A stretch of DNA of 64,000 bases from an uncultured Acetobacteraceae bacterium (GTDB lineage: Bacteria; Pseudomonadota; Alphaproteobacteria; Acetobacterales; Acetobacteraceae), in the NCBI GenBank assembly GCA_903907955.1, contig CAIVPZ010000041.1:62001-126000 (forward strand), read 5' to 3'. A program made the position numbers and the translations under genes. Below are positions 30,620 to 33,173 of the stretch, piece by piece. How positions within the stretch are numbered: the first letter of the stretch is position 1; each line of letters opens with the position of its first letter. Under the pieces are notes generated by a model. That model searched no databases, was not told where the DNA came from, and worked only from the letters and a program-made list of their open reading frames with translations.

Positions 30620-32443
30620 ATGTGCGGCATTGTTGGCGTGATCGGCCCCAATCCGGCGGCGCCTTTGCTGCTGGAGGCGCTGCGGCGGCTGGAATACCGG
30701 GGCTATGACAGCGCCGGCATCGCCACCCTGGTGAACGGCCATATCGAGCGCCGGCGTGCTCCGGGCAAGCTGAGCAGCCTCGCCGCCGTGCTGGAACGCG
30801 ACCCGCTGTGCGGCACCACCGGCATCGGCCACACCCGCTGGGCCACCCACGGCGCGCCCACCGAGGGCAACGCCCACCCGCACGGCACCGCGCGCGTCTC
30901 CATCGTGCACAACGGCATCATCGAAAACCACGCCGAGTTGCGCACGATGCTGGAGCGGCAAGGGCAGGAGTTCTTCACCGAGACCGATACCGAGACGGTC
31001 GCCCAGCTGGTCGACCTGCTGCTGCGCCGCGGCGCCAGCCCGGTGGAAGCCGCCGGTGACGCGCTGCGGCAGCTGGAAGGGGCCTATGCGCTTGCCATGG
31101 TGTTCGCCGGCCATCCCGAACTGATGATCGGCGCCCGGCGCGGTGCACCGCTGGCGGTGGGTTTCGGCGACGATGCCATGTACCTGGGCAGCGACGCGCT
31201 GGCGCTGGCGCCGCTCACCCAGCGGATCGCCTATCTGGAGGACGGCGACTGGACGGTGCTCTCGCGCGACGGCGCCGCATTCTTCGATGCGCGCGGGCAG
31301 GAGGTGCAGCGCGAGATCCGCCGCACCGCGATCACCGGCGCCGCCGTCGGCCGCGGCAACTACCGCCATTTCATGGAGAAGGAACTGCACGAGCACCCGG
31401 CCGTGCTGGGTGACACGCTGCACCAGATGATCGACCCGGGCAGTTGCGCGGTGGTGCTGCCGGAGTTGCCCTTCGATCTCGCCACCCTGCCGGCGGTCAC
31501 GGTCAGCGCCTGCGGCTCGGCCTTCTACGCCGCCCAGGTCGGCCGCTACTGGTTCGAGCAACTGGCCCGGCTGCCCACCGACGGCGATGTTGCCAGCGAA
31601 TTCCGCTACCGCGCGCCGCCGATGGCGAAAGGGGGGCTGGGCATCCTGGTCAGCCAGTCCGGCGAAACCGCCGACACGCTGGCGGCGCTGCGCTACATGC
31701 GCGCGCAGGGCCAGCACGTGCTGTCGATCGTCAACGTGCCGGAAAGCAGCATGGCGCGCGAGAGCGACGCGGTGCTGCAGACCGTCGCCGGACCCGAGAT
31801 CGGGGTGGCGAGCACCAAGGCGTTCACCGCCCAGCTTGCCGTGCTGGCCTGCCTGGCGCTGGCCGCCGGACGGGCGCGCGGCACGCTGAGCGCCGCTCAG
31901 GAAGCGGCGATGACGCATGCGCTGCTGGAGGTGCCGGGCCGCGCCGCCGAAATTCTGGAGCACGACGCCCAGATCCGCCGCATCGCCGCGCGCGTCGCGG
32001 CTTCCCGCGACGTGCTGTATCTCGGGCGTGGCAGCTGCTTCCCGATCGCCATGGAAGGGGCGCTGAAGCTGAAGGAAATCAGCTACATCCACGCCGAGGG
32101 CTATGCCGCCGGCGAGATGAAGCACGGCCCGATCGCGCTGATCGACCAGGCCGTGCCGGTGATCGCCATCGTCCCCTCGGGGCCGCTGTTCGAAAAGACG
32201 GCGAGCAACCTGCAGGAAGCGGCGGCGCGCGGCGGTCAGGTGATCGTGTTCAGCGACGCGGCAGGGGCCGAGAAGCTGCAGGGCATCGCCGACGAGACGG
32301 TGGTGCTGCCCGCGGTCGATCCGTTCGTGGCGCCGATCCTGTATGCCATTCCGGTGCAGTTGCTGGCCTACCACGTGGCGGTGCTGAAAGGCACCGACGT
32401 GGATCAGCCGCGCAACCTGGCGAAGAGCGTTACCGTAGAGTAG
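30620..32443 (+). CDS. glmS: Glutamine-fructose-6-phosphate aminotransferase
   Basis: 607 residues. Met-Cys start (MCGIVGVIG) gives the N-terminal nucleophile; GHTRWATHGAPTEGNAHPH and NGIIENH are glutaminase motifs. Two SIS domains follow (SACGSAFYAAQVGRYWFE, SQSGETADTLAALR, ASTKAFTAQL) and the C-terminus is NLAKSVTVE. It makes glucosamine-6-P in the same pathway as GlmU. The last 72 bp are duplicated exactly 730 bp downstream. Confidence 0.96.
   Translation: MCGIVGVIGPNPAAPLLLEALRRLEYRGYDSAGIATLVNGHIERRRAPGKLSSLAAVLERDPLCGTTGIGHTRWATHGAPTEGNAHPHGTARVSIVHNGIIENHAELRTMLERQGQEFFTETDTETVAQLVDLLLRRGASPVEAAGDALRQLEGAYALAMVFAGHPELMIGARRGAPLAVGFGDDAMYLGSDALALAPLTQRIAYLEDGDWTVLSRDGAAFFDARGQEVQREIRRTAITGAAVGRGNYRHFMEKELHEHPAVLGDTLHQMIDPGSCAVVLPELPFDLATLPAVTVSACGSAFYAAQVGRYWFEQLARLPTDGDVASEFRYRAPPMAKGGLGILVSQSGETADTLAALRYMRAQGQHVLSIVNVPESSMARESDAVLQTVAGPEIGVASTKAFTAQLAVLACLALAAGRARGTLSAAQEAAMTHALLEVPGRAAEILEHDAQIRRIAARVAASRDVLYLGRGSCFPIAMEGALKLKEISYIHAEGYAAGEMKHGPIALIDQAVPVIAIVPSGPLFEKTASNLQEAAARGGQVIVFSDAAGAEKLQGIADETVVLPAVDPFVAPILYAIPVQLLAYHVAVLKGTDVDQPRNLAKSVTVE
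32372..32443 (+). repeat. 72-bp direct repeat, left copy (glmS 3' end)
   Basis: The last 72 bp of glmS, from CACGTGGCGG to the TAG stop, recur without mismatch at 33102-33173. The flanking bases differ on both sides, so the repeat is sharply bounded. It resembles an attachment-site duplication or the end of a recombined fragment. Confidence 0.95.
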
Positions 32444-32499
32444 GGGTTGCGCCCGCGGGGTGAAGTGCCAACGTATCGCTGGCCATGAGGACATGAACG

Positions 32500-32721
32500 A
32501 TGTCTGAGTCTGCTGTGAACCAGACGCGGGTTACGACGCTGGTGCCGAATCCGCTCTATCGGAAGCTGGAAACGGCAGCGCGGCGGCGCGGCGTTTCGAT
32601 CGCCAGCATTGTTCGTGAATCTCTTGAACTCAACACCTTGCTCCTCGATGAGGAGGCCGCTGACGCGAAGGTGCTGATCGAGCACCCGGACGGTCGGATG
32701 GAGCGGATCGTCCGGCGTTAG
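32500..32721 (+). CDS. Small ribbon-helix-helix-like protein inside the glmS-repeat insert
   Basis: 73 residues. TRVTTLVPNPLYRKLETAARRRGVSIASIV looks like a CopG/Arc-type ribbon-helix-helix: a beta-strand, then two helices with a G-V-S turn. The acidic and basic C-terminal tail ends ERIVRR. It would bind DNA as a dimer. It lies between the two copies of the 72-bp repeat and is followed 12 bp later by a membrane-protein gene. The assignment is by pattern only. Confidence 0.6.
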   Translation: MSESAVNQTRVTTLVPNPLYRKLETAARRRGVSIASIVRESLELNTLLLDEEAADAKVLIEHPDGRMERIVRR

Positions 32722-32733
32722 GATCGTTTCCCG

Positions 32734-33045
32734 ATGTCCCGCATCGAGCCGTCTGCGCCCGACGACGAAGCCGATGCCGCCGCCATTCCTTACGAGACGT
32801 CCATAGGCAAGGCTCCCTACGAGCCGACCCGTGACCGCGAGCGTGTGCGTGGGCTGCTGGCCGCGGCGCTGATTGGGCTGCTTTCGATCGTCGTCCTTGG
32901 CTTGTTCGTGGCGCTTCTTGCAGGGCGTTTGACCATCCCCGAGCTTGGACAACTGGCCGCGGTGACGATTTCGCCGATCGTCGGTCTGCTCGGCGCGGTG
33001 CTGGGCTTCTATTTCGGCGAGCAGTCACGCGATCGGCCACGCTGA
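32734..33045 (+). CDS. Small two-span membrane protein inside the insert
   Basis: 103 residues with an acidic N-terminal 35-residue tail, two hydrophobic spans (about 41-63, LLAAALIGLLSIVVLGLFVA, and 75-94, VTISPIVGLLGAVLGFYFG) and a short basic end. No family is recognised. With the preceding RHH-like gene it is all the coding content of the 658-bp insert. Confidence 0.6.
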   Translation: MSRIEPSAPDDEADAAAIPYETSIGKAPYEPTRDRERVRGLLAAALIGLLSIVVLGLFVALLAGRLTIPELGQLAAVTISPIVGLLGAVLGFYFGEQSRDRPR

Positions 33046-33101
33046 CCCCGGATCAACAGGCGAAGCGGCGGTTGCCGGCCTGCCGCGTGCCGGCGCCCTG
33101 A

Positions 33102-33173
33102 CACGTGGCGGTGCTGAAAGGCACCGACGTGGATCAGCCGCGCAACCTGGCGAAGAGCGTTACCGTAGAGTAG
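33102..33173 (+). repeat. 72-bp direct repeat, right copy (displaced glmS tail)
   Basis: Exact second copy of the glmS 3' end including the TAG. It abuts the 3' part of a small minus-strand membrane-protein gene, whose last codons and TAA stop are read from the repeat. Confidence 0.95.

Follow-up and report, generated by a model that had tools for sequence, protein, structure and literature searches.

Background

The 3' end of glmS, an essential gene for the cell wall, contains attTn7, the landing place of transposon Tn7, which inserts downstream of the glmS stop codon and leaves a 5-bp duplication. The present study describes another kind of insert at this gene end, found in a 64-kb stretch of DNA (hereafter the window) from an uncultured Acetobacteraceae bacterium, in which 658 bp carrying two small genes lie between two identical copies of the last 72 bp of glmS. 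The locus shares its landing place with Tn7. It differs in that the cargo extends from the stop codon onward, that a long duplication takes the place of the 5-bp one, and that no tns genes were found.

Incoming DNA that inserts at the 3' end of a gene and restores the gene it targets is already known. In integrase-dependent islands at tRNA genes, and likewise in GIsul2 and the integrative and conjugative elements (ICEs) of Mesorhizobium at guaA, the gene end is restored by the incoming DNA, a displaced fragment remains at the far end and empty sites occur in relatives, as at the locus described here. In contrast to these islands, the present locus has a cargo of 0.66 kb, no integrase that could be found, and glmS as its target. 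The GIsul2 site at the guaA end is given as 5'-GAGTGGGA-3' (PMC9376610), to be compared with the guaA copies reported below, most of which start 77-98 bp before the stop codon, and ICEs of Mesorhizobium are documented to integrate at guaA (PMC8627217). In Methylophilaceae, additive flexible islands with inserts of 330 bp to 42 kb are recognisable by repeated copies of a tRNA-Lys end (PMC10872708); recurring gene-end copies mark inserts of variable size in both systems, although the repeat is a 20-bp tRNA end there and a 72-bp protein-gene end here.

Insertion with duplication of a homologous end has also been described for systems that need no site-specific recombinase. In Escherichia coli provided with a homologous end, a polymerase chain reaction product diagnostic of duplication was the main outcome (56/60 clones), and the duplications, 109-950 bp long in 14 sequenced clones, were explained by a single crossover of a shortened circle (PMC3240628). 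As in the window, a duplicated homologous end of variable length flanks the insert, whereas the E. coli case involves a laboratory plasmid and not a natural cargo with preferred gene ends. For the effector-immunity arrays of Vibrio cholerae, homology-facilitated illegitimate recombination was proposed by the authors (PMC5361080); genes are likewise added at an anchored point, older ends are pushed downstream and repeats give rise to arrays, but at secretion-system loci instead of housekeeping gene ends. Tandem duplications in pneumococcus have been explained by pairing across sister chromatids (PMC3784515). In the excerpts of the open-access literature searched, a glmS target, so small a size, the absence of an integrase and recurrence, as reported here, were not found described.

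Structure of the glmS locus

The features of the locus, in window coordinates, are as follows (ORF, open reading frame; RHH, ribbon-helix-helix; GC3, GC content at third codon positions):

30620..32443, + strand: glmS, complete, 607 aa, C-terminus ...GTDVDQPRNLAKSVTVE (ORF list; Pfam SIS and GATase domains)
32372..32443, + strand: first glmS tail copy, in frame within glmS (repeat search; 2/72 differences from congener G004)
32444..33101, + strand: cargo, 658 bp between the tails, GC and GC3 below those of neighbouring genes, missing at the single-tail site of G004
32500..32721, + strand: RHH-type gene, 73 aa, first of the module (ORF list, Pfam; homologue behind glmS of G026)
32734..33045, + strand: small membrane-protein gene, 103 aa, second of the module, with a C-terminal GAVLGFYFG stretch (ORF list, Pfam)
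33102..33173, + strand: second glmS tail copy, displaced, identical to the first (repeat search)
33160..33351, - strand: small convergent ORF, 63 aa, its last codons and stop within the second tail copy (ORF list; homology to G004)
33435..34889, - strand: xseA (exonuclease VII large subunit), the right-hand neighbour (ORF list, Pfam)

The target gene end is thus present as a direct repeat on both sides of the insert. The repeat search delimits 77 bp at 97% identity (32367-32443 and 33097-33173), the last 72 bp of which match perfectly at a spacing of 730 bp, and thereby bears out the duplication and the 658-bp two-gene insert reported by a first-pass annotation made from the sequence alone. 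The tail pair is the longest exact direct repeat of the window, the only other one of at least 28 bp measuring 35 bp (28388 and 37926); since no exact direct repeat of similar length exists elsewhere in the window, the tail repeat is not a product of chance. The second copy is immediately preceded by a stop codon when read in the glmS frame. Because the small convergent ORF terminates inside the glmS tail, the doubled tail keeps both of the overlapping gene ends whole. Within the draft genome (G000, 176 contigs), the 861-bp region is single-copy. All comparisons below are based on draft genomes without reads, with one genome per species.

The composition of the cargo departs from its surroundings: its GC content is 64.7%, compared with 69.5% for the window, and GC3 is 73-74% in both cargo genes, compared with 87-90% in glmU, glmS and xseA. 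By these lower values, the cargo looks foreign.

Other repeats were recorded in the window. The 35-bp exact repeat is common to two copies of a dispersed repeat of ~60 bp (AGGGC..GCCCTGGACCC..), which lies at 1125-1182, 20588-20651, 28375-28425, 30545-30601 and 37906-37964 and is also present in related genomes. Short exact repeats of at least 20 bases, at spacings of 27 and 267 bp, occupy positions 21978-22300. The same genome also contains a second GlmS-like gene with an open frame of 643 aa (L073, G000:C109 about 119378-119953).

Evidence for insertion

The glmS-end interval was searched in 60 related genomes. Each of the congeners G001-G006 carries a single glmS tail in the stretches read, and the membrane protein has no match in any of them. 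In G004, the glmS part is 91% identical to that of the window, and a second match runs from the end of its single tail into what lies to the right of the insert in the window: one tail (2/72 differences) is followed by sequence homologous to that after the second window copy, the convergent small ORF included, and the cargo is absent. The window structure is therefore an insertion at the glmS 3' end. In the other five congeners, the 260 bases behind glmS appear different by eye, so that G004 is the only proper empty site among the six. An empty one-copy site in a relative, as envisaged by the first-pass annotation, accordingly exists. Its refuting alternative, an old duplication common to all relatives, is ruled out by the single tail of G004 and the lack of the module in the congeners, and a simple tandem duplication in the window is excluded by the fact that none of the cargo is found in G004. 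The suggestion of a cassette integrated at a gene 3' end thus stands as far as insertion at the glmS end is concerned; the unit may still be mobile today, and a single fixed attachment core at glmS is at most possible, the copy starts in different genomes ranging from -72 to -211 relative to the stop codon.

Cargo genes and distribution of the module

Both genes noted earlier between the tails were recovered as ORFs, each with a Pfam match below its cut-off. The RHH ORF matches RHH_3 (E 4e-4, 20.7 bits, just under the cut-off of 21.6), and the top match of the membrane-protein ORF is DUF3792 (E 5e-4). No function could be assigned to either protein from the Pfam, NCBIfam and PHROGs profiles. 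A type II toxin-antitoxin pair was considered and rejected, since the small membrane protein that partners the RHH protein matches no toxin family in the same three collections. The cargo looks like a regulator with a small membrane protein, a role inferred from gene order only.

The membrane protein was found in 6/397 genomes of the family and 3/385 of the class, the window's own genome being counted in both. A small RHH-like gene lies upstream of it in L019 (G026), L076, L077, L079, L086 and L087, with a less clear case in L078; the same order is seen in L131, on L132 (an Acidimicrobiaceae contig) and on two viral-collection contigs (L126, L127), the RHH-like genes of relatives being named by reading and alignment. 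The pair is thus a sporadic module. Searches of plasmid and phage collections returned no match to the membrane protein. In G026, which belongs to another genus, the pair stands directly behind glmS, with 51% identity to the window in the membrane protein (71 aa) and 36% in the RHH protein; no clear second glmS tail was detected there, only weak partial matches, on a contig that ends 4.4 kb past glmS. A relative of the membrane protein was also seen in a Thermoplasmata (archaeal) contig (L133, 6001-6282), with no obvious RHH gene just upstream.

Recurrence behind glmS in other genomes

A 36-aa GlmS end was used to search 397 family and 347 class genomes, giving matches in 377 and 307, respectively (5 in both), or 679 distinct genomes; those with at least two matches (23 of the family and 15 further ones of the class) were searched again. 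A second glmS tail on the same contig within 2.2 kb was identified in 7/679 genomes: G000 (the window), G036, G163, G355, G622, G705 and G570. The tails are 0.73-2.18 kb apart, and the copies have blast lengths of 77 (72 perfect), 129, 230, 99, 150, 98 and 117 bp with identities of 79-97%. Their starts lie at -72/-76 in the window, -87 in G570 and -92 in G705, and at -112, -125, -143 and -211 in the others. The remaining genomes with at least two matches have full-length second genes or lone matches elsewhere.

Five of the seven genomes carry a cargo different from that of the window, an outcome that the first-pass annotation had named as a check for a mobile cassette. The inserts comprise a 172-aa ORF without a Pfam match in a stretch of 44-46% GC (G036) and, all Pfam-confirmed, a family-25 glycosyltransferase (G163), a LysR-type regulator (G355), a nucleotidyltransferase/HepT-like pair between the tails (G622), and, on contig C128 of G705, a metallo-beta-lactamase-fold protein ahead of the second tail and a DSBA-like protein between the second and third tails. 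On another contig of G705 (C24), a pair homologous to that of G622 (63% and 48%) follows a glmS tail, with no second tail. In G355, the sequence after the second copy matches that behind the single tail in 4/5 congeners compared. The same glycosyltransferase as in G163 was found in its congener G088, on a contig that ends before any second tail could appear.

Several further observations were made at glmS ends. In L109 (G705, reverse strand), a 961-aa ORF comes after the three glmS tails with their two inserts, and tails 2 and 3 have common base changes that are not in glmS itself. G274 has two glmS 3' parts, each at a contig end and with different genes behind it (L071, L072), possibly with a larger island between the glmS copies, and a lone tail lies on another contig in G054; both genomes were left out of the count. 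When 71 glmS loci, covering part of the genomes with a single glmS match, were checked for more decayed tails, the same-strand matches were short, and those in L159 and L035 stop short of the gene end. A 23-bp match to glmS positions -27..-5, located 6.6 kb downstream in L187, might be a tail remnant and was likewise not counted.

The guaA hotspot and the DNA-level control

With guaA picked as a negative control, a protein-level search of 327 class genomes matched 242. Twelve genomes gave at least two guaA matches; in 11/242 (loci L220-L230), the second tail is on the same contig, 0.7-5.9 kb downstream of guaA, and in the twelfth on another contig. Three tails were present in G451 and in G538. 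The copies end between -11 and +7 relative to the stop codon. By blast edges, 8/13 copies, drawn from different families, have their start 77-98 bp ahead of the stop, and the remaining 5/13 start at 122, 163, 173, 221 and 495 bp. The ORFs of the G036 guaA insert include a D12-type DNA methyltransferase and a ParB-type protein (Pfam). Thus, guaA is a second hotspot of compact tail-flanked inserts and not a usable control. Protein queries are blind to very short copies, and the limit for well-kept copies was judged to be ~50-60 bp because copies of 24 and 21 aa scored 39 and 31.6 bits, respectively, at a cut of ~27 bits. No guaA start was found between this limit and 77 bp, and part of the grouping of starts may be due to the limit.

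A DNA-level control covered 60 glmS-centred segments of up to 20 kb each (1.12 Mb, with 869 ORFs of at least 120 aa, glmS included) and gave two gene-tail rows, one clear (L157) and one in L182. In L157 (16554-18282), a fad-type gene has a 272-bp displaced tail at 95% identity across a 1.2-kb insert; the differences are mostly synonymous by eye, and a 194-aa ORF in the insert has no Pfam match. The L182 row was set aside, as its ORF looks spurious, and a 1042-bp pair in L139, lying between two gene-length ORFs, was taken to represent paralogues. Fisher tests of 7/679 for glmS against 2 or 1 of 869 gave p values of 0.048 or 0.025, which are indicative only, the detection methods being different.

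Search for recombinases

In line with the earlier statement that no recombinase lies between the tails, neither cargo ORF matches an integrase family in Pfam, and a tyrosine-recombinase regular expression, checked against one XerC-type motif, found nothing in the 64-kb window, a scan that did not extend to serine recombinases or transposases. The same expression was negative downstream of glmS in 60 segments of up to ~10 kb, some of them shortened by contig ends, and in the second-tail loci scanned. No integrase was recognised in the ORF lists of the guaA inserts or detected in them by the expression. The sole match lies 8.9 kb upstream of glmS in L151.

Possible mechanisms of insertion

The explanation that we favour, and consider probable, is that recombination between the chromosomal glmS end and a small circular DNA bearing a glmS end of its own added a 730-bp unit. 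Such a circle, the existence of which is inferred, would combine the RHH and membrane-protein genes with part of a glmS end. Recombination with the chromosomal glmS end would yield a complete glmS followed by the cargo, with the old tail displaced downstream and the convergent small gene intact. The joining would be due either to a single crossover by RecA or to a site-specific recombinase acting in trans, between which we make no preference for the window. This explanation is supported by the single-tail site of G004, by the deviating composition of the cargo, by the E. coli duplications as a precedent (PMC3240628), by the recurrence of the glmS-end arrangement with other cargo and by G026, where the module behind glmS without a clear second tail has the order expected of a donor. 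The differences between paired tails also bear on their source. In G622, 7 synonymous and 2 non-synonymous differences separate the tails, compared with a synonymous share of 26% expected at random (computed on the window tail); since this excess is as between working genes of two lineages, it suggests that one of the tails may be derived from the working glmS of another lineage.

Several observations weigh against the favoured explanation. Neither a same-species empty site nor an excised circle was seen, and no close donor was found, the G026 proteins having only 51% (membrane protein) and 36% (RHH) identity. As the window tails are 100% identical, the crossover point is unreadable. Among the genomes for which synonymous counts were made (G622, G036, G705 and, over the last 20 codons only, G163, with G355 and G570 left out), the synonymous to non-synonymous ratio is less biased in G036 (5:3), G705 (2:5) and G163 (1:3), which for G705 and G163 suggests a displaced copy that may be decaying. 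The G570 case looks like a tandem duplication, because a diverged copy of the native downstream stretch comes after its second tail. Finally, guaA (11/242) and glmS (7/679) contrast with about 1 in 869 ORFs, counts that were made by differing methods; a pure RecA event should strike genes alike, and the excess at guaA and glmS therefore counts against it.

Two specific versions of the joining step can be compared, each of which we rate at somewhat below an even chance. According to one, a tyrosine recombinase encoded elsewhere joins an attachment site of the cassette to one near the glmS end, in the manner of integrases acting at gene 3' ends, and the gene end borne by the cassette restores glmS. 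The excess of glmS over other genes in tail copies agrees with this, as do the compact inserts of like kind at guaA, a documented ICE target, with their grouped starts in different families and the three tails of G451 and G538; three of the glmS starts, those of the window, G570 and G705, are also near one another. On the other hand, the remaining glmS starts are scattered, 5/13 guaA copies start further upstream (-122 to -495), the guaA pile-up could partly reflect the detection limit, no tyrosine-recombinase motif was found downstream of glmS or in the tail loci within the segments scanned, and an integrase for the glmS end was not found in the excerpts of the open-access literature searched. 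The other version, with an equal claim, invokes a RecA single crossover or homology-facilitated illegitimate recombination, in which the end of the fragment is arbitrary within glmS. Variable glmS starts, small inserts and the missing recombinase motif are consistent with it, as is the fad-type gene with its 272-bp tail; the E. coli duplications provide a published outcome class, and a related process has been proposed for the Vibrio effector arrays (PMC3240628, PMC5361080). It does not readily account for the preference for guaA and glmS or for the grouping of the guaA starts.

Explanations other than recombination of such a fragment fare considerably worse. A chimeric join at a shared stretch during assembly is conceivable for a draft genome of 176 contigs without reads, but other genomes show the like arrangement with diverged tails and other cargo, and joins at identical sequence do not yield diverged tails; we thus regard an artefact as highly improbable. 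Fainter still is the chance of a Tn7-like insertion at attTn7, which would fit the location behind glmS but not a cargo that abuts the stop codon and has 72 bp of glmS behind it. The Pfam scan of both cargo genes revealed no tns family, and together with the insert position this rules out Tn7 itself, in keeping with the doubt already expressed in the first-pass annotation.

A broader possibility, which we put forward tentatively and consider rather unlikely, is that of an as yet undescribed class of compact cassettes without an integrase that would use core-gene ends (guaA, glmS) as shared attachment sites, each carrying a gene-end piece, moved by a recombinase in trans and stackable in arrays. 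The RHH/membrane-protein unit would be one of its members. Such a class would resemble integron cassettes in which the end of a core gene stands in for attC.

Significance

Searches for mobile DNA mostly look for recombinases or tRNA sites, and small tail-marked inserts behind housekeeping genes are easily missed. The displaced gene piece provides a simple search signature, by which inserts were found to recur at guaA (11/242) and glmS (7/679), and a HepT/nucleotidyltransferase pair and a DNA methyltransferase are among the genes they carry. Whether RecA or a recombinase in trans joins such inserts to the gene end is a testable question raised by these loci. Taken together, the findings suggest that tiny cassettes lacking a recombination enzyme can dock at the ends of core genes.

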